Source: Bradyrhizobium cosmicum (lineage in GTDB: Bacteria > Pseudomonadota > Alphaproteobacteria > Rhizobiales > Xanthobacteraceae). Taken from it: a stretch of 64,000 nucleotides of DNA. A program made the position numbers and the translations under genes. The first letter of the stretch is position 1. Each line of letters starts with the position of its first letter. The DNA lies in contig NZ_CP041656.2 of the NCBI RefSeq assembly GCF_007290395.2, forward strand, positions 3,100,001 through 3,164,000, in the 5' to 3' direction. Below are positions 7,721 through 19,507 of the stretch, piece by piece. The notes under the pieces were generated by a model. The model worked only from the letters and a program-made list of their open reading frames with translations. It was not told the DNA's origin and did not search any database.

Positions 7721-7848
7721 GATCGGGAGTGTGTCTCGCGGAGCAGGTCCTTTATATACGAGACACAGGAGCAGAGTTTCATGCGCAGGTCACCCGGAGG
7801 ACATGCGTGCTCCGGGCTTCTGCTCATCTATCGGTGCGAGCGCAGCCG

Positions 7849-8508
<660 letters not shown>

Positions 8509-8901
8509 GGTTTTACCTCATCGCATTGAATTTACTTGGGAATTCATTTGTGGCCGTCGCCGTCAGTATAGGGGCTTGGCGAGGCTAAGTGAACGTCAAG
8601 TGAACCGCTTCAAGTAAAATGTGAATTCCTTCCTTGAAGGGCCGATTTCCTAGCACCTTTCTGTTACAGCCGCGCCTGCGACGAAACATCTCCACCGTGG
8701 ATGCACGGTCTCGATTGCCCCGAGAAAGCCTTTTATGACTCGCATCACGCTGGCCCGACGTTTGATGGAACCAAAACGATCCTGATAGCGACTAATTGGC
8801 AACCATCGAGAAAAGTCGCGATCCCCGTATCGAATCATTAACCACCTCTTTACGCCCGCATGAAAATGCTGGTCGGTCAGAAGAAATCTGGAAGTGAACT
8901 A
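8509..8901. other. divergent intergenic region
   Basis: A 393-nt AT-richer gap between the peroxiredoxin gene and a divergent hypothetical gene. It contains the direct repeat TCAAGTgAAccgctTCAAGTaAA at about 8599-8622, which may be a regulator site for one of the neighbours. I find no convincing ORF or RNA in it. Confidence 0.5.
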
Positions 8902-9474
8902 ATGTCCGCCGCTGCGCATATGTCTGTTGAGTCGCCGTCCCTCGAACCGTCCTGCCGCGATACCGCGGCTCATGCACTCTCCATCGTGCGCGACGGCGTG
9001 ATCACGGGCGAAGGCCCGACCACCAAGGGCCGGGTCCACTTTTCCCGCTCGCTCGATGCCGATGACACCGCCTGGTGCACCCGCATCCTGACCGCTACGG
9101 CCGTCAACGACCAGCCGGTCAGCCGCGCCGAAGCCGAAGCGCTGTTCGAGATCAACGAGGCCGCGACCGAGCGCACCGACGGTGGCCGGTTCGACGATCT
9201 GCTTGCCAAGGCCGTGGCGCACTATGCCGCCAGCGCCTCGGGCCTGAAGGTGCCGCCGCGCAGCGTCGCGCTGTCGGCCGAGTCCGACATCGAGAGCTGG
9301 GCGCCGTCCTATGCGTCCAAGGTCAACAGCGAGATGCTGGAGTGGATCGCCGGCCAGATGCGCGGCAAGCGCCAGAACAACCGTCGCCTGATGGCGATGG
9401 TGGCGACCTTCCTGGGCGCCACCGCGCTGCCTCTGGCGGGCCAGTTGCCGAACGTGTTCGACATCGGCATGTAA
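8902..9474 (+). CDS. hypothetical protein with C-terminal hydrophobic segment
   Basis: A 190-residue protein of unknown family. The N-terminal ~130 residues are polar and mixed (a phrase such as RAEAEALFEINEAATERTDGG recalls the small EF-hand/TerB-like helical modules, but I cannot confirm it). After a basic patch (GQMRGKRQNNRR) comes one hydrophobic segment, LMAMVATFLGATALPLAG, near residues 167-184. MSAAAHMS at 8902 was chosen because GGAAG lies 7 nt upstream; an in-frame ATG at 8860 would add 14 residues. It ends at a strong intrinsic terminator. Confidence 0.72.
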   Translation: MSAAAHMSVESPSLEPSCRDTAAHALSIVRDGVITGEGPTTKGRVHFSRSLDADDTAWCTRILTATAVNDQPVSRAEAEALFEINEAATERTDGGRFDDLLAKAVAHYAASASGLKVPPRSVALSAESDIESWAPSYASKVNSEMLEWIAGQMRGKRQNNRRLMAMVATFLGATALPLAGQLPNVFDIGM

Positions 9475-12157: not shown

Positions 12158-12475
12158 TCATTCCGGCGCAATCGGCACTCGCGGATTCTGCGCGAGGGCC
12201 GGGGCTGGCTTGACTGTCGCCGGGGTAGCTCCGCTCCTGGTCAGATCGCGCCGCAGCGCAAGCGGGGCCGCCCTGAGTGCGTAGATGATCGCGATCTGAG
12301 TCCTGTTCTGGATGCGGTATTTGCGCATGATGTTGCCGATATGCGCCCGCACCGTGTTCTCCGAGATTTTCAGCTCGTAGGCGATGTTCTTGTTCTGCAT
12401 TCCGCGTGCGATCAGCATCATCAGTTCGCGTTCACGCGGCGTCGGCGTAATCGAGTCTTTCGGATCCGGGCTCAT
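12158..12475 (-). CDS. LuxR-type helix-turn-helix protein without receiver domain
   Basis: A 105-residue protein that is essentially a GerE/LuxR DNA-binding domain. It runs from TPRERELMMLIARGMQNKNI (about residues 12-31) through ISENTVRAHIGNIMRKYRI, the recognition helix, and ends in a 35-residue Pro/Ala-rich tail. There is no receiver or ligand domain, so activity must be set by expression level or partner proteins. The start at 12475 follows GGGAGGAG at ideal spacing; a longer frame to 12529 is not supported. It lies 50 nt downstream of the MacB-like permease on the same strand and is probably the last gene of that operon. Regulators of this family (CsgD in enterobacteria) control curli, and curlin-repeat genes are nearby. 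Confidence 0.87.
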   Translation of the reverse strand: MSPDPKDSITPTPRERELMMLIARGMQNKNIAYELKISENTVRAHIGNIMRKYRIQNRTQIAIIYALRAAPLALRRDLTRSGATPATVKPAPALAQNPRVPIAPE

Positions 12476-12525: not shown

Positions 12526-13749
12526 TCACTCCGTCTTGAGCGCTTCTATCGGACTGAGCCTGGACGCCTTATGCGCAGGATAAAAACCGAAGATGAGGCC
12601 GGTTGCGATCGAGAAGACAAGGGCCAGGGCAATTGCTTCGCTGTCGATCGATGTGATCCAGCCCGCCATGCGCGCGACCGTCATCGACAGCGTGATTCCA
12701 CCGACAACGCCGATGGCGCCGCCGAGAAGGCAGAGTACGAGCGCTTCGCAGAGAAACTGGAGGCGGATGTCCCGCATCCGGCCGCCGAGCGCGCGGCGAA
12801 TGCCGATCTCCCGGGTGCGCTCGGTGACCGACACGATCATGACATTCATGATGCTGATGCCGCCGACGAGCAGCGAGACCGAGGCGATGGCGACGAGCAG
12901 CAGCGCCACGGTGCGGATCGCGCCCTGCTGCGCTTCCATGGCAGCAGCCGGATCCTGGACCTTGAAGTCGTCCTCCTGGCCGGCAGGGATACGGTGGCGC
13001 TGTCGCAGCAGGCTTTCGATCTCCGATCGCGCGCCCGCCATCTGGCCATCCGCAGCCACCTTGGCGATGATGTAGGCGACCGAATCCCGGTTGATGTTGC
13101 TCGCGCTGCCGAGGAAGCGCAGCTTGGCCGTGCTGAGCGGCACGAAGGCAACGTCGTCCTGTGCCGGGCCCTTGCGATCGAGCACGCCGACCACTTCGAG
13201 TGGCACCTTCATGATCCTGATCTGCGCGCCGACAGGATCGTCGCCCGGCGCGAACAACTCGCGTGCGACGGTGCTTCCGAGGATCACGACCTTGCCGGCA
13301 CCGGCCTCCTCGGCGGCGGAAAAATAGCGTCCGGCCTCGAGCTGCCAGTCACGGACCATGAAGTGGCTGGTCGTCGTGCCGTTGATGGTCGTGTTCCAGT
13401 TCTTGCTCTCGTGGATGACCTGCGCCGTTCCGGCGATCGAGCCGGCCGCGGCCTGAATTTCCGGAATCTGCTCGAGAATGGCATGCACATCGCTCTCGGT
13501 CATCGTCAGCTTGCTGCCGTCCTTGAGACGTACGCCGCCCTGATAGACCGCCCCCGGCGTGATCATCAGCACATTGGCGCCGATCGAGCGGATCTGTTCC
13601 TGAAGGCGAAGCTGCGCGCCGGACCCGATCGCAAACACCGTCACGATGGAGGCGACGCCGATCACGATTCCGAGCATGGTGAGGAAGCTGCGCAGCGGGT
13701 TGAGGCGCAAGGCGTGCAGAGCAATCTGGAAGCCCTGGAGCATCGTCAT
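12526..13749 (-). CDS. MacB-like ABC transporter permease
   Basis: A 407-residue inner-membrane protein with the FtsX/MacB arrangement. There is one transmembrane helix near residues 20-42 (NPLRSFLTMLGIVIGVASIV), a periplasmic MacB_PCD-type domain of about 230 residues, and three helices in the C-terminal 130 residues with the conserved ISIMNVMIVSVTERTREIGI cytoplasmic joint. Such permeases do not transport through the membrane core but drive periplasmic substrates out mechanically with a membrane-fusion protein and an outer-membrane duct. The start overlaps the ATPase stop by ATGA (translational coupling). Substrate unknown. Confidence 0.92.
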   Translation of the reverse strand: MTMLQGFQIALHALRLNPLRSFLTMLGIVIGVASIVTVFAIGSGAQLRLQEQIRSIGANVLMITPGAVYQGGVRLKDGSKLTMTESDVHAILEQIPEIQAAAGSIAGTAQVIHESKNWNTTINGTTTSHFMVRDWQLEAGRYFSAAEEAGAGKVVILGSTVARELFAPGDDPVGAQIRIMKVPLEVVGVLDRKGPAQDDVAFVPLSTAKLRFLGSASNINRDSVAYIIAKVAADGQMAGARSEIESLLRQRHRIPAGQEDDFKVQDPAAAMEAQQGAIRTVALLLVAIASVSLLVGGISIMNVMIVSVTERTREIGIRRALGGRMRDIRLQFLCEALVLCLLGGAIGVVGGITLSMTVARMAGWITSIDSEAIALALVFSIATGLIFGFYPAHKASRLSPIEALKTE

Positions 13750-14471
13750 GGCGTAAGGCCCCGTTTCGGCAGGAGTTGCGCCGACGTCTCGTCGCTGACG
13801 AGCTCGCCATCGTGCAGGCGAATCGTGCGCCGGCACTGCGTCGCGATGCCGGGATCGTGCGTGATCATCACGATGGTCTGGCCGGTCCGGTTAAGCGCCG
13901 CGAACAGTCCCAGGATTTCGGCACCGGTGCGGCTGTCGAGCGCACCGGTCGGCTCGTCGGCGAGCACGATCAGCGGAGAGGCGATCAGCGCCCGCGCGAT
14001 CGCGACGCGCTGCTGCTCACCACCCGAGAGCTGTCGCGGAAAGTGATGGGCCCGGTGCAGCATGCCGACGGCCTGAAGGCTCTCTTCGGCGCGCGCCAGG
14101 CGCGCCTTGCGACCGACACCGCCATAGACCAGTGGCAGCGCGACGTTCTCGATCGCATTGTGGCGCGCCAGCAAATTGTAGGACTGGAACACGAAGCCGA
14201 TGCTGCGCGCCCGCAAAGACGACCGGCGATCTTCCGAGAGCTCGGCAACATTGGCACCCTCGAGATGAACCGCTCCTTCGCTCGGCAGGTCGAGCAGCCC
14301 GATCATGTTCATCAGTGTGGACTTTCCCGAGCCCGACGGGCCCATCACAGCCACGATCTCACCTTGCGCGATGTCGAAGCTGACGTTGCGCACCGCAGGC
14401 ACCGAGACTCCGTCGGTGCGATAGGTCCTGGATACGGACCGAAGACTGATCAGGGGCAGGGGAGTGCTCAT
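13746..14471 (-). CDS. ABC transporter ATP-binding protein (LolD/MacB type)
   Basis: A 241-residue ATPase with Walker A GPSGSGKS (residues 44-51), Q-loop FVFQSYNLL, signature LSGGEQQRVAIARAL, Walker B and D-loop VLADEPTGALD and switch His in ITHD. The RSxNLL-type Q-loop region and overall length match the MacB/LolD/FtsE group that works with MacB-like permeases. It overlaps the membrane-fusion gene upstream and the permease gene downstream by four bases each (ATGA), so the three proteins are made in step. A longer reading frame upstream lies within the fusion-protein gene and is not used. Confidence 0.95.
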   Translation of the reverse strand: MSTPLPLISLRSVSRTYRTDGVSVPAVRNVSFDIAQGEIVAVMGPSGSGKSTLMNMIGLLDLPSEGAVHLEGANVAELSEDRRSSLRARSIGFVFQSYNLLARHNAIENVALPLVYGGVGRKARLARAEESLQAVGMLHRAHHFPRQLSGGEQQRVAIARALIASPLIVLADEPTGALDSRTGAEILGLFAALNRTGQTIVMITHDPGIATQCRRTIRLHDGELVSDETSAQLLPKRGLTP

Positions 14472-15904
14472 GATCCGAACCTGATTCCGAGGAACTCCAT
14501 GCCTGCGGGCCTGATGGCCTGGCCGACGGCGACCTGACTGCCCTCGACAAGGTTTCCGCTCTTGAGCGCAACCTGTTCTGTGCCGGCCGCGCCGACCGTC
14601 ACCGCAATGCGCTGCAGCGAGCCGCTGGAAGTGCGGACCCAAACGCCGCTGTTCGCAGTGATTGCATCCGGCCGCATGCCGGATGGCTGGAAACGCAACG
14701 CGGCGAGCGGCACTTTCAGCACGTCGTCCTGCCGCTCGATCACGATCTTCACCAGAGCGGTCATGCCGGGCAGCAACGCGCCGTCGAGATTGGAGGTCGA
14801 CAGCACCACGGTGTAGGTGACGACGTGCTGCTGATTTTGCGGTGCCTTGCGCACCTGCCGGACCACGGCCTCGAAGCGGCGGTCGGGATAGGCATCTACG
14901 GTGAAATGAGCGCGCTGGCCGGGGACGATGCGCCCGATATCGGCTTCGTCGACCTGGGCATGGATCTCCATGTCTTCCAGGCGGTGGGCAACCACGAAGG
15001 TGGTGCGCGACTCCAGGCCCACCGCAAGAGTCTGGCCCTCGTTGACGAACCTGCCGACAATGACACCGTCGATCGGCGAACGGATCACGGTGCGGTCGAG
15101 ATCGGCCTGGGCCGCAGCAAGCACGGCCCCCTTTTCCGGCACGGCCATTCGCGCCTGCTGCAACTCGGCCTCGATCCGGCGAACGTCGGCCTGCGCGCCA
15201 TCCACGGAATAGGCATTGAGGGACATCATGATCTCGGCCTCGCGCTCCTGGGCGAGCCGGGCGGTGAATTCCGTCTGGGCGTCGTCGACCGTCGAGGTCG
15301 CCACCACATTCTGCGACTGCAGGGCGAGTTTGCGCTGCAAAGTCTTCTGCGCCGACGTCTTGACCGCTTGGGCGCTCTCGAGTTTGGCGGCAAGCACGTC
15401 GCGGCTGCCCCTGGCGTTCTGCAGGTCGATCCGGGCCCGATCGAGCTTGGCCCGCGCGATATCGACCAGCGAGTTGGCAACGGCCATCGAAGCCCTGGCT
15501 TCATCGACCTTGGCTGCGAAGCTGCGCGGATCGATCAGGGCGAGCGGCTCGTCCTTGCTGACGGTATCGTTGAAGTCGACATAGACCCGAGCGAGTTGCC
15601 CCGATAGCTGGGAACCCACCTCGATCGTCTTGACCGGTTGGAGCGCTCCCGTCACCGTCACGGTCTGCTCGATGCTGCCGCGCTGGATCGCGGCGTAGCG
15701 GAACATCGGTGCATCCGAGCCGAGAGTAGGAGAGGTACGCCCGTCCGGTGCAAGGAACCGCTTCGTCGCTTCGTAGGCGCGGGCCATCCCGTCCGCCGCA
15801 TTTCCGGTCGCGCCCGCGATGATGGCTGGTGGCGCGACGTAGGGCAGGGCGAGGCCGCATCCAGTGCCGAGCAACACCATGATTGGTACAAATCGCATAT
15901 GCAT
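14468..15904 (-). CDS. HlyD/MacA-type membrane-fusion (periplasmic adaptor) protein
   Basis: A 478-residue periplasmic adaptor. An N-terminal hydrophobic anchor or signal (residues 4-26) is followed by a barrel strand, VTVTGALQPVKTIEVGSQLSG, then a long helical hairpin of about 150 residues (including AKLESAQAVKTSAQKTLQRK) and the returning lipoyl half, DRTVIRSPIDGVIVGRFVNEGQ. A further beta-barrel follows, with PDRRFEAVVRQVRKAPQNQQ and LLPGMTALVKIVIE. This is the MacA/RND adaptor pattern. No TolC-like outer-membrane gene is present, so a partner must be encoded elsewhere. It is the first gene of the exporter operon, divergent from the FixJ-type regulator across a 594-nt gap. Confidence 0.92.
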   Translation of the reverse strand: MHMRFVPIMVLLGTGCGLALPYVAPPAIIAGATGNAADGMARAYEATKRFLAPDGRTSPTLGSDAPMFRYAAIQRGSIEQTVTVTGALQPVKTIEVGSQLSGQLARVYVDFNDTVSKDEPLALIDPRSFAAKVDEARASMAVANSLVDIARAKLDRARIDLQNARGSRDVLAAKLESAQAVKTSAQKTLQRKLALQSQNVVATSTVDDAQTEFTARLAQEREAEIMMSLNAYSVDGAQADVRRIEAELQQARMAVPEKGAVLAAAQADLDRTVIRSPIDGVIVGRFVNEGQTLAVGLESRTTFVVAHRLEDMEIHAQVDEADIGRIVPGQRAHFTVDAYPDRRFEAVVRQVRKAPQNQQHVVTYTVVLSTSNLDGALLPGMTALVKIVIERQDDVLKVPLAALRFQPSGMRPDAITANSGVWVRTSSGSLQRIAVTVGAAGTEQVALKSGNLVEGSQVAVGQAIRPAGMEFLGIRFGS

Positions 15905-16498
15905 ATCAAGCCCCGCCTCTTGAAATGACGTTGAGAGCGGAAAAGTCGAATATCGCGCTATGGTTGTATTTCGATCGAGGCGATGGTGGCGCCTCGGCAA
16001 TATGTCGTCGTTCTTAGTGCGACGGACGGGTGCGCTCCATGATCCAGAAGTAAACTACGAAGCTGTGAGCTTTCGCGACTTGCGCGGATCGCATACCGGG
16101 CGTATTCAAAACGTAGCGCGCGGTATCGAACTCGATAGCTGACTTTACGTCCCGGCTGGTCCAATCGGCGAGCTGATGGTGTTCAAGTTGGCGCAGAGTG
16201 GCGGCGTCATGATGCAAGTGGCGAGATCACGGCCGGAGACGCCTGATTTCCGCATTTCGGTGACGGCATTTCGCCGGCAGACCGCACCTGTCGGCGTCAA
16301 AGCTCTCCCATCACGAAGCCTGATTTGTGAACGCCTTCACTCTTGCCGACGGAGTGTTGGCCTTAAAGACGTCAAGTTGGGGAGCCGACGAAGCTCGTCC
16401 GTTCCGTGCCGACGCATTCAAGCACCTTGTTGTCGCTTGCAAGAACAATGGATGGCTCGCGCTGGGCTATCGAGCGCAAAGTCCGGGAGTCTGTCGCA
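15905..16498. other. long divergent intergenic region
   Basis: 594 nt between the exporter operon and the response regulator. Two short frames (16014-16217 minus, TTG start; and 16327-16533 plus) have plausible composition but no good start, ribosome binding site or recognised similarity. The region probably holds divergent promoters; no obvious operator was found. Confidence 0.4.
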
Positions 16499-17158
16499 AT
16501 GAATTCAAATCAAGCTACAGTTTATGTCGTTGACGACGAAATCCAGATACGAAACGCGATCGGGCGCCTTTGCGAGGAGACGGGACATCAGGTGAGGCTG
16601 TTTGCCTCGACGGATGAATTCCTGAGCGAGAACCTGTCTGAAGGCCCGTCATGTCTCGTGCTCGACGTTCGCTTTCCCGGAACGTCGCCGACCGGGCTCG
16701 AGCTTCAGCACAGGCTCGCCGAAACGGGCGTGCTCATACCGATCGTTTTCATCAGCGGCCATTTGGACATCCGGGTCTCGGTCGAGGCCATGAAGTACGG
16801 CGCGGTCGAATTCTTGCCAAAACCCTTCCGCGAACAGGAGATTCTCGATGCGATCCGGCACGGCATCGAGCGCGATCGCAGGCGCATCGAGCGCGAGAAC
16901 GCGGTGCGCGAGGCGCGCCGGCGCGTTGAAACGCTGACGGCCCGCGAGCGGGAGATCATGCTGCTGATGGCTGAGGGGCTCGTGGCCAAGCAGATTGCGG
17001 CAAGACTCGGCGTCAGCGAGGTGACCGCCAAGGTTCATCGCGCCAGGATGATGCGGAAGCTGGCGCTGCGTTCGCCGATCGAAGTGGTGAGATTGATCGA
17101 TTGCATGGGGCGAGAAGCCGCTACGATGCGGATCGGCGCGAGCCATTCGCTGACCTAG
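16499..17158 (+). CDS. FixJ/NarL-family response regulator
   Basis: A 219-residue two-domain regulator. The receiver (about 5-120) has the acidic pair D12/D13, phosphoacceptor D56 (CLVLDVRFPG), T/S-switch residue in FISGH and K108 (FLPKPF). A linker with a charged helix leads to the GerE helix-turn-helix at about 145-205 (LTAREREIMLLMAEGLVAKQ and VSEVTAKVHRARMMRKL). The pattern is that of FixJ/NodW/TodT regulators, which pair with PAS kinases; no kinase gene is adjacent. ATG 16499 has GGGAG about 9 nt upstream. It is followed 166 nt later by the curlin-repeat genes on the same strand and is their most likely regulator. Confidence 0.9.
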   Translation: MNSNQATVYVVDDEIQIRNAIGRLCEETGHQVRLFASTDEFLSENLSEGPSCLVLDVRFPGTSPTGLELQHRLAETGVLIPIVFISGHLDIRVSVEAMKYGAVEFLPKPFREQEILDAIRHGIERDRRRIERENAVREARRRVETLTAREREIMLLMAEGLVAKQIAARLGVSEVTAKVHRARMMRKLALRSPIEVVRLIDCMGREAATMRIGASHSLT

Positions 17159-17324
17159 AGCTGCCGGCGGCGAGATGCAGCACAACGTTTAGTCCTTACT
17201 GATTAGCATGAACTGCAGTCTATCGCACCGAGCACCATCGGTTCACAGTCGTCCCTGCGATGTCGGCATCCTCCAAGACGGCATCCGAACCCAGTCAGAC
17301 AACTTGGCTAGAAAGGGATATTCC

Positions 17325-17723
17325 ATGCGCAAATTGTTTTTTGCCTCCGTTGCCGTGTTCGCTCTGTCTTCCGCCGCTCAAGCGGCCAACACCGCCAATA
17401 CAGTTCAGATCGGTGGCGCCAACAGCTCCTCCGTGACGCAGAACGGTGTGACGAATGACACCTCCAACACGACCCAGCTCGGCTTCTTCAATTCCGCGAC
17501 CACTTCGCAGGGTCTCGCCACTCCGTCACTCAACAATGCCAGCACGGTGACCCAGGTCGGCGGTATCGTCAATACGGCCACCACCATGCAGAACGCCTTC
17601 GGCGGCAACAGCAGCTCGATCTCTCAGAGCTCGTTCCCATTGCTGCCGCCGAGCAACAGCGCAACCGTCGGGCAGAACTCGATCCTGCTCTTCGGGAACA
17701 CCAGCGTCATCAACCAGCACTAG
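17325..17723 (+). CDS. secreted curlin-repeat protein 1
   Basis: A 132-residue precursor with a Sec signal peptide (MRKLFFASVAVFALSSAAQA). The mature part is Asn/Ser/Thr/Gln-rich and contains curlin-type units of the pattern Q-x-G-x2-N-x-(A/S)-x3-Q, e.g. QIGGANSSSVTQ and QLGFFNSATTSQ, plus one-residue-longer variants (QVGGIVNTATTMQ). These repeats are the strand-turn-strand steps of the CsgA/CsgB amyloid. The last two units are degenerate. It should be exported and could polymerise at the cell surface. First of five consecutive genes; none resembles the CsgE/F/G export factors. Confidence 0.85.
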   Translation: MRKLFFASVAVFALSSAAQAANTANTVQIGGANSSSVTQNGVTNDTSNTTQLGFFNSATTSQGLATPSLNNASTVTQVGGIVNTATTMQNAFGGNSSSISQSSFPLLPPSNSATVGQNSILLFGNTSVINQH

Positions 17724-17844
17724 TCCAGCCCCGAACGGTCCCGGGCGCCTCCCAGCGCGGTGCGTCCGGGCCGTCTCTGAAAGTACCGCACCCGAGCGGC
17801 CCGCCCGATGACGGATCGACGGCTGATATTCGCGGAGGAATCAC

Positions 17845-18243
17845 ATGCGCATCAAATTCATCATTGCGACGGTCGGCGCCCTCGGCGCGTTGACAGCTGT
17901 CGAGGCTCATGCCGGAAATTCGGCGAGCGTGCTGCAGTTCGGTGGAACGAACAGCTCCTTCATCTCCCAGAGCGGGGGCACCAGCAACACGGCCACCACC
18001 CTGCAATTCGGCACCACGAACTGGGCGACGACCCTACAAACGGGATCGCCGTTCTCGGTAAACTCGCTGACGATCGGGCAAGGCGGCTCGTCGACCGGCC
18101 CTGCGATCAACAATACGATCCTGGCCGGTCAGGGCGGCGGCTCGAACACGAGCCTGATCGGCCAGATCGGCACCAACAATGCAGCCTTGCTGTCTCAGTT
18201 CGGGCTTTTGAACGGATCGACGATTCTCCAGCAGACACCGTGA
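17845..18243 (+). CDS. secreted curlin-repeat protein 2
   Basis: A 132-residue precursor with a signal peptide (MRIKFIIATVGALGALTAVEAHA). It carries the cleanest curlin repeats of the group. QFGTTNWATTLQ fits Q-x-G-x2-N-x-A-x3-Q exactly, and the C-terminal third runs three units without interruption (QGGGSNTSLIGQ, QIGTNNAALLSQ, QFGLLNGSTILQ). A non-repeat insertion (SPFSVNSLTIGQGGSSTGPA) separates the two blocks. The start has an excellent GGAGGAATCAC. It is 121 nt downstream of curlin protein 1. By analogy it is a candidate major amyloid subunit. Confidence 0.88.
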   Translation: MRIKFIIATVGALGALTAVEAHAGNSASVLQFGGTNSSFISQSGGTSNTATTLQFGTTNWATTLQTGSPFSVNSLTIGQGGSSTGPAINNTILAGQGGGSNTSLIGQIGTNNAALLSQFGLLNGSTILQQTP

Positions 18244-18288
18244 CCGGGTGGTTCGTCCCTGATTTCCGCAACTGTGCAGAGGCCTGCC

Positions 18289-18702
18289 ATGAAATACCGC
18301 CTTCCCCCCGCCGCCAGTATCGCAGTTCTGATTGTCTGTTGCATGCAAGGTAGCCTGGCGCAGGCGCAAACCTTCGACTTCAAGAACGTCGTGTCGGTCA
18401 ACGGTCCTCCCGTCGTTGTGAACCAGAGCAGCCAGTTCAACATGACCGGCCTGTTCATGGTCGGCGGCAACACAAGCGGGACCGTCGTGCAAACCGGGAC
18501 CACGAACGCCGTCGGAATCCTGCAGTTCGGCGGAACGACGTCGGCATCGATCAGTCAGACCGGGATTTTCAATTCCGCATCGGTTGGCCAGACCGGCCAG
18601 TCGGCCACCAGCTTGCTGTCCCAGCTCGGCACCATGAACGCGGGGGCGATCGCGCAGTTCGGAACGATCAACTCGTCGACGGTGATCCAGAAAAGCCCAT
18701 AA
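18289..18702 (+). CDS. secreted curlin-repeat protein 3
   Basis: A 137-residue precursor with a signal peptide to about residue 30 (after SLAQAQ). After a non-repetitive N-terminal segment (FDFKNVVSVNGPPVVVNQSS), curlin units continue almost in phase to the C-terminus: QTGTTNAVGILQ, QFGGTTSASISQ, QTGIFNSASVGQ, QLGTMNAGAIAQ and QFGTINSSTVIQ. It differs from proteins 1 and 2 in its N-terminal half, which may make it a specialised subunit. Start at ATG 18289 with GAGG upstream, 45 nt after protein 2. Confidence 0.87.
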   Translation: MKYRLPPAASIAVLIVCCMQGSLAQAQTFDFKNVVSVNGPPVVVNQSSQFNMTGLFMVGGNTSGTVVQTGTTNAVGILQFGGTTSASISQTGIFNSASVGQTGQSATSLLSQLGTMNAGAIAQFGTINSSTVIQKSP

Positions 18703-18746
18703 GACGCGCGCATCGTTGCGATGTGAAGATGAATGGGGGAAGCGCA

Positions 18747-19196
18747 ATGAGATGCGGCAGGCAGATCTTGGCGACGACCGCAGCGTTCGCAGTCATGTGC
18801 GCGGTGACCGAAGCATCCGCGGGATCCGTCCAGCGCAGCGTGACGAACCGGAACGTGAGCATCGAAACGATCGTGCAATTCGGCGACAATGTTCAGCCGG
18901 TCACGATCGAGGAGAACAGCCGCATCAATATCGCGCGGGTGATCCAGATCGGCGGCACTGGTACCGTGGATGCGACGATCATCCAGAACGGTACCCGCAA
19001 CTATGCTAACGTGATCCAGGTGGGCGGCACTACCAATGCGGCGATCGGTCAATCTGGTGCGAGCAATACCGCCGACATCACCCAGATCGGTAATTCGACC
19101 AATGCTCTCCTGCTGCAGATCGGGGACATGAACTCGGGCGCGGTAAGGCAGTTCGGACGCTTCAACTGGCTCGCGATATTTCAATTTGGCCGATGA
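18747..19196 (+). CDS. secreted curlin-repeat protein 4
   Basis: A 149-residue precursor with a signal peptide (MRCGRQILATTAAFAVMCAVTEASA). It contains about seven curlin-type units: QFGDNVQPVTIE, QIGGTGTVDATIIQ, QNGTRNYANVIQ, QVGGTTNAAIGQ, QSGASNTADITQ, QIGNSTNALLLQ, QIGDMNSGAVRQ. It ends abruptly in QFGR, with more charged residues (E, R, D) than its sisters. In enterobacterial curli, charged repeats mark the nucleator CsgB, so this may be the nucleator-like member (inference). The ATG follows GGGGGAAG. Its stop overlaps a possible earlier start of gene 5. Confidence 0.86.
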   Translation: MRCGRQILATTAAFAVMCAVTEASAGSVQRSVTNRNVSIETIVQFGDNVQPVTIEENSRINIARVIQIGGTGTVDATIIQNGTRNYANVIQVGGTTNAAIGQSGASNTADITQIGNSTNALLLQIGDMNSGAVRQFGRFNWLAIFQFGR

Positions 19197-19216
19197 CCGA
19201 AACAAAGAGGTGTGAC

Positions 19217-19507
19217 ATGAAGTTTCTGCTGCTCGCATCCGGGATGAGCCTCATGGCCATGATCGGGATCGCTTCGGCCGGGGCCGGCGAATCCGGCGAT
19301 GGCCACACCACCGCTGTCCAGGACGAGAACGGGACAGCGGTGATCACGCAAAGCGGCGATCCTGCGCACGCCGAGGTCAGGGTCGACAAGGAGCCCGGCC
19401 GCACGACGATCACCCGCCGCAGCGGCGGCAATACCGCCATCGTCTCGCAAGGCAATGGAAATGCGCAGGACATGCTCGACTGGCTGCGCAAACAGCAGGG
19501 CCGCTGA
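19217..19507 (+). CDS. secreted protein 5 of the curlin cluster
   Basis: A 96-residue precursor with a signal peptide (MKFLLLASGMSLMAMIGIASA). The mature part has only weak repeat traces (VQDENGTAVITQSG and SGGNTAIVSQGNGNAQ) and is rich in charged residues, ending in MLDWLRKQQGR. It is encoded 20 nt after protein 4 with AGAGGTG as ribosome binding site, so it is almost surely co-transcribed. It might be an assembly, nucleation or capping factor; there is no sequence basis for naming it CsgC, E or F. Confidence 0.8.
   Translation: MKFLLLASGMSLMAMIGIASAGAGESGDGHTTAVQDENGTAVITQSGDPAHAEVRVDKEPGRTTITRRSGGNTAIVSQGNGNAQDMLDWLRKQQGR

Follow-up and report, generated by a model that had tools for sequence, protein, structure and literature searches.

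A ten-gene block of Bradyrhizobium joins a curlin array without CsgG to a putative MacAB-type exporter

The window analysed here, 64,000 nucleotides of Bradyrhizobium cosmicum (positions 3,100,001 to 3,164,000 of contig NZ_CP041656.2), contains at 17325–19507 an array of five genes, cur1–cur5, for secreted proteins, four of which are built from curlin repeats. This array makes up one half of a block of ten genes: a divergent operon on the minus strand, encoding a MacAB-type pump and a small LuxR-type regulator, lies opposite a FixJ-like response regulator and cur1–5 on the plus strand. Judged from sequence, the block is a curli-like system, most likely with a MacAB-type exporter. The reading we favour, at a probability of about 0.6, is that the ten genes would form a module for a curli-like surface fibre that is independent of CsgG, in which the MacAB-type pump, together with a TolC-type channel, exports the curlins.

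The original prediction had proposed a five-gene array of secreted proteins with curlin repeats, and this was borne out when each product was searched with PF07012: cur2 (17845–18243; E = 2.2e-14, 3 stretches), cur3 (18289–18702; 2.5e-7, 3 stretches) and cur4 (18747–19196) exceed the cut-off, cur1 (17325–17723) scores 13.7 bits, below the cut-off, and cur5 is a partner protein. The Q-x-G-x2-N repeat ladder of cur1 is nonetheless conserved in 12 aligned sequences, such that cur1–4 all bear curlin repeats. The reading frame of cur4, the best conserved of these four, opens at 18723; the start at 18747 agrees with orthologues. Signal peptides of Sec type, judged by eye, are present on all five products, and the mature curlins, with lengths taken by eye from the cleavage sites, comprise approximately 109–124 residues and lack cysteine. 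The predicted fold of cur4 is a β-solenoid; a Foldseek search with this model returned nothing significant, and comparison by VIA-align 2 ranked CsgA first.

cur5 (19217–19507, plus strand) encodes a small, charged, secreted protein with no cysteine and no Pfam match. Its core (ITQSGDP...PG.T...GGN) is invariant, in our alignment, in the block and in a second CsgG-free locus type described below. The family has 304 relatives, and among the best 120 of these 304 the named ones are Bradyrhizobium. A cur5 profile gives a weak match with the fibril sequence of CsgA (E 0.003) and shows no real similarity to the cur4 profile (probability about 1%); the AlphaFold model is poor, with a pLDDT of 51.6, too low to judge the fold. 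The protein might act as a chaperone, a cap or a nucleator. Its assignment as CsgH was rejected, given the lack of both a Pfam match and cysteine.

The transporter genes of the divergent operon are of MacAB type by their sequence. The periplasmic adaptor (14468–15904; HlyD/RND_mfp family, HlyD_D23 1.8e-15) matches the MacA structures 9qgy (8.1e-27) and 5nik (6.7e-26) and reaches 141 bits with RND_mfp (cut-off 94.9); with the MacA equivalog model it scores 135 bits, below the cut-off of 342. The permease (12526–13749; MacB_PCD 6.3e-47 and FtsX 1.4e-18) matches the MacB structure 5gko (E 4.2e-64). For the ATPase (13746–14471; ABC_tran 1.5e-33), which retains the Walker A, signature, Walker B and H-loop motifs, the best NCBIfam model is MacB, at 242.6 bits against a cut-off of 966 that is set for the fused protein; here ATPase and permease are separate, overlapping genes and not one fused MacB chain. 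Pfam identifies no other export gene in the block. The original prediction had placed export of the curlins either elsewhere in the genome or by a different route; the adjacent MacAB genes give a specific candidate for the latter, the divergent operon of MacA, ABC ATPase, MacB and LuxR-type genes having been overlooked.

Two regulators complete the block. The response regulator (16499–17158, plus strand; Response_reg 2.9e-20, GerE 2.4e-16), just upstream of cur1, scores 165 bits with the NCBIfam FixJ model (cut-off 255) and has the receiver residues that phosphorylation would require (acidic, Asp, Ser and Lys); regulation may therefore differ in kind from that by CsgD. The small LuxR-type protein (12158–12475, minus strand) consists of a GerE DNA-binding domain only (2.5e-19) and is 68–92% identical across the 42 block-type loci that extend that far; it scores 44 bits with the CsgD model (cut-off 250), with the MadR, ErdR and NarL models slightly better. 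Between the response regulator and cur1, base runs at 17187–17226 (plus strand) are kept in at least 95% of 44 sequences, and may represent a regulator-binding or promoter site. The intergenic stretch between macA and the response regulator (16005–16150) is also conserved in 44 sequences and is another possible site of this kind.

The search for a curli exporter was extended from the window to the whole genome, which comprises 7,271,215 bases on one contig and is listed as 100% complete. PF03783 (CsgG) gave no match, with positive E. coli and Caulobacter controls. PF07012 gave six matches at E ≤ 0.001, all of them within the cur array, at a threshold which would miss repeats as weak as those in cur1. 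Within the block, Pfam identifies neither CsgE nor CsgF among the ten genes, for which a genome-wide search was not made, nor CsgH (PF21112), which the same library detects at other loci. The earlier claim that several non-identical curlin subunits are encoded with no recognisable curli exporter thus holds, as far as sequence models can tell, beyond the window, with CsgG unmatched throughout the genome.

The pump and the array are inherited together. Among 146 sampled genomes of the genus, with block MacA called at E ≤ 1e-100, PF07012 is found in 49, CsgG in 7 and block MacA in 40 (74–91% identical in carriers other than the genome of the window; G134 is included by a partial match). PF07012 is present in 40/40 MacA carriers versus 9/106 non-carriers (Fisher p 1.6e-27, uncorrected for phylogeny), and in all 40 carriers MacA and curlin share a contig within about 5 kb, as compared by eye. 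The nine curlin genomes without block MacA comprise five with CsgG (G027, G031, G073, G075, G121), the decayed G168, and three with a locus of another type (G082, G094, G140). G014 and G071 have CsgG and no PF07012 match at the threshold; weak curlin-like matches to cur2–4 lie a few kilobases from csgG in G014 (L043, 12821–13852). The idea that CsgG and the block exclude one another was considered and dropped, as the difference (0/40 versus 7/106) is not significant (p 0.19).

Within the genome collection, 43 of the 47 cur5 loci are of the ten-gene type, and in 41 of the 43 every gene of the block has >60% coverage, with order and orientation the same throughout; the exceptions are L132, which ends at a contig edge, and L100, where the ABC and MacA genes are partial. 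All ten genes are likewise present in the same order and orientation in nine congeners (L032–L040), several of which, having contigs of equal length, are the same genomes as among the 47. MacA is interrupted or partial in L079 (G134), L100 and L125, through decay or assembly error: in L079 it is in two pieces and cur4 is also affected, in L100 the ABC gene is affected too, and in L125, on a contig as long as that of L079, MacA is above threshold but partial.

Sites without the block point in the same direction. G020, G035, G017 and G016 keep alkP at one flank and dn1, GNAT and SDR at the opposite flank, with no block gene between them, and G016 holds the block at another place that lacks those flanks. 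The GNAT flank was located in 9 of the 12 genomes given; G004, G009, G001, G018 and G030, with no other flank in the stretch, are uninformative on the empty site. In G168 (L074, 10028–10445) a single deletion places mid-cur4 directly against the final ~56 residues of MacB, and has removed cur1–3, the response regulator, macA, the ATPase gene and most of macB. Because gene order is conserved, 43 of the 47 cur5 loci carry the ten genes, pump and curlins co-occur in 40/40 carriers, and losses take the form of empty sites or a single deletion, the ten genes travel as one unit; a functional link between pump and curlins is near certain.

The block genes are under purifying selection, with median dN/dS values of 0.06–0.36, that of MacB being 0.06. 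Mean pairwise identity is highest for MacB (95%) and lowest for cur1–3 (75–77%), as expected for variable surface subunits served by a fixed machine. By identity to the window, cur1–3 (17325–18702) fall into two classes, L039, L097, L107 and L112 at ~74–89% and the others at ~52–73%; this split, which is not seen in macAB, suggests that subunit alleles have been exchanged.

The second CsgG-free locus type consists of two short curlins (111 residues each in L072), a cur5 relative of 146 residues and a curlin–autotransporter protein of 474–494 residues. It is present in G082, G094 and G140, from which the block is absent, and in G070, G089 and G016 (B. iriomotense), which have the block. The long protein was identified by Pfam in L072 (9319–10803, plus strand) and L075 (10424–11848, minus strand), and by tblastn in L070 (5863–7347, minus strand), L073 (10608–12089, plus strand), L071, L076 and L137. 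In the L072 and L075 proteins PF03797 is C-terminal (1.1e-42 and 1.6e-39), and the curlin repeat exceeds the Pfam cut-off in one and lies just below it in the other. The four L072 proteins were found together by tblastn in 9/9 loci (L070, L071, L073, L075, L076, L134–L137), a set that includes some genomes twice and in which L136 is L072 again; the first three genes are duplicated in L071, L075, L076 and L137. An ABC transporter was rejected as a hallmark of this type, since L072 has a C39-peptidase transporter, L073 a different ABC ATPase, and L070 and L075 no match. Should the autotransporter barrel take the attached curlin to the outside, the genus would have two distinct ways of dispensing with CsgG.

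In the mechanism that we propose for the block, the Sec signal peptides would deliver cur1–4 to the periplasm, from where MacA, the ABC ATPase and MacB, in concert with a TolC-type channel encoded in the genome, would drive them across the outer membrane in place of CsgG, perhaps with cur5 as an escort during export; the curlins would then assemble outside the outer membrane. The genome encodes seven OEP/TolC-type proteins outside the block (15 matches, of which 14 exceed the cut-off, at two per reading frame), any of which could serve as the channel. The FixJ-like response regulator and the small LuxR protein would control the module, taking the place that CsgD has in E. coli. We infer export by MacAB, its pairing with TolC, the role of cur5, the mode of regulation and an amyloid-fibre product from the genes and their arrangement. 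There are precedents for such a route. MacB-type pumps are generally considered to work on periplasmic substrates. Excerpts of PMC5985334 state that, after delivery by Sec, the enterotoxin STII leaves through MacAB–TolC; the excerpted text of PMC7943197 describes the Aat system, in which AatB and AatPC are MacA and MacB homologues, as expelling Sec-delivered Aap/CexE. By a Sec-then-MacAB route of this kind, curlin export would need no CsgG.

Several observations weigh against this mechanism. Peptides known to be transported by MacB homologues tend to be small and to contain disulphide bonds (PMC5985334, in excerpt), and the cysteine-free curlins are larger than the known MacAB protein substrates. 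The block has no TolC-type gene. Linkage of genes, as read from sequence, indicates a functional partner of the curlins, which need not be their exporter; the pump could serve in peptide defence or envelope stress. The second locus type has no MacAB beside it, so that curlins with a cur5 relative can dispense with the pump, and G168 retains cur5 and the small LuxR gene in a locus that has lost it. The absence of CsgG was judged with a single model, PF03783, and the complete co-occurrence of MacA and curlins, in a count that treats related species as independent, comes from one genus.

A rival explanation, which we consider unlikely, is that MacAB belongs to the module without being the exporter: it would clear toxic or misfolded curlin, or guard the envelope against peptides during fibre production, with the curlins leaving by an unlinked route. 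MacAB pumps are also known for resistance to macrolide and peptide antibiotics (according to the same excerpts of PMC5985334), and in the stretches read around curlin loci outside the genus without linked csgG a MacAB operon is not seen, so that unlinked routes probably exist; against this, the pump clade occurs only beside the array, in 40/40 carriers of the sample, and the block holds no other export gene. It is more improbable still that the curlins are not secreted at all, and form a structural or storage amyloid in the periplasm or on the inner face of the outer membrane. The signal peptides account for passage of the first membrane only, and an outer-membrane exporter gene is lacking from the block, both of which would suit retention, but four diversified subunits together with the adaptor of a tripartite pump seem to fit the outer surface better.

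The remaining alternatives assign the array to systems already described. Dueholm et al. (2012) reported that in many Alphaproteobacteria only curlin subunits plus CsgH are found, and inferred other biogenesis pathways (PMC3521004, in excerpt). It is very doubtful that the block is an instance of this CsgG-poor csgA/csgB and csgH arrangement: CsgH is present in 5/5 of the tested loci from outside the genus, whereas none of the ten block genes matches PF21112, and cur5 has no cysteine while CsgH is described by its disulphide pattern. A simple duplication of csgA that relies on a canonical csg locus at another place in the genome is scarcely credible. CsgG does exist in 7 of the 146 sampled congeners, but it is found in 0 of the 40 block carriers (not significant as an exclusion, p 0.19), and this genome has neither a CsgG match nor a second PF07012 locus. 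Since PF03783 has no match genome-wide, the array cannot be a duplicated csgA that depends on a recognisable csgG, a possibility that the original prediction had kept in view; it is refuted for this genome unless a CsgG has diverged too far for PF03783.

Comparison with known systems places the block between several of them. With curli (type VIII secretion; csgBAC-csgDEFG of E. coli, and the csgG locus L041 of another Bradyrhizobium) it shares subunits that carry signal peptides and curlin repeats, neighbouring regulators of LuxR type and, in cur4, a predicted β-solenoid. It differs in that its genome has no CsgG match and the block no CsgF or CsgH, whereas L041 has all three; moreover, the block encodes four short, divergent subunits, and L041 a 585-residue open reading frame with many QxG motifs. 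The CsgG-less csgA-csgH-csgB loci (PMC3521004, in part) resemble the block in having curlins without linked csgG, but the five tested have CsgH and, in the stretches read, no MacAB operon, and the block has MacAB, cur5 and two regulators. Its adaptor, MacB-type permease and ATPase are shared with MacAB–TolC and with the Aat system (AatPABCD), which give the precedent for moving Sec-exported proteins outward; unlike these, the block pump is linked to curlins and the block has neither a TolC homologue nor an acyltransferase, and its split ATPase and permease are unlike E. coli MacB. The likeness to type V autotransporters lies in the fusion of curlin to PF03797 in the second locus type, which is outside the block and tied to it only through the cur5 family and the curlin repeats.

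It is possible, at a little short of even odds, that Bradyrhizobium swapped CsgG for a dedicated, ATP-driven MacAB-type curlin pump, with the autotransporter-barrel type of curlin locus in parallel and the cur5 family common to both. To our knowledge, an energised secretion route is known for no other curlin. If the proposed export is correct, an energised tripartite pump can move curlin subunits, the substrates of the MacB family extend to amyloid proteins, and a surface structure of root-nodule bacteria has been identified that may matter for attachment and biofilm. The block would also name a concrete candidate exporter for the curlin routes whose existence was inferred in 2012 by Dueholm et al. 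(PMC3521004, in part). Titles and opening lines of abstracts on curli or curlin with Bradyrhizobium, CsgG, autotransporter or MacAB contain no description of this arrangement; the excerpted text of PMC5017803 treats csgG of Methylobacterium.

MacA of the block type (87–100% identical) occurs in 5 of 397 genomes of the order, all of them of the same genus; in G438 and G392, the two of these five that add to the congeners above, a cur1 begins at the edge of the stretch examined. More distant MacA homologues (36–41% identical) occur in 15 of the 397, two of the 15 in the genus, and around five of them (G161, G185, G505, G196, G126) there are MacAB genes and no match to cur1–5. A search of 84,980 species with two short peptide patterns, which can miss distant relatives, found no cur5 relatives outside the 47 loci. 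By name, these are 45 from Bradyrhizobium, one from a metagenome-assembled genome of Bradyrhizobiaceae and one (L096) titled Frankia sp. RB7. The L096 record carries a Bradyrhizobium block and flanks at ordinary congener identity, and is probably mislabelled or contaminated.

Across 385 genomes of the class, PF07012 is found in 11 and CsgG in 66. In five of the 11, CsgG is matched strongly within a few kilobases of the curlins, on one and the same contig; in G536, G537 and G769 the CsgG matches are weaker and confined to other contigs, and G000, G603 (82% complete) and G671 have none. In all five tested loci from outside the genus without linked csgG (L044, L045, L046, L184, L185), CsgH (PF21112) adjoins the curlins, and the stretches read around them contain no MacAB operon. 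In L045 (G050) an adaptor-like open reading frame at 7775–9016, ~1.2 kb from the csgH-type curlin locus, is 25% identical to MacA over 203 residues. In the window itself, the segment at 15500–19500, which holds the response regulator and curlin genes, has a GC content of 0.59–0.62, compared to 0.63–0.69 in most of its surroundings.

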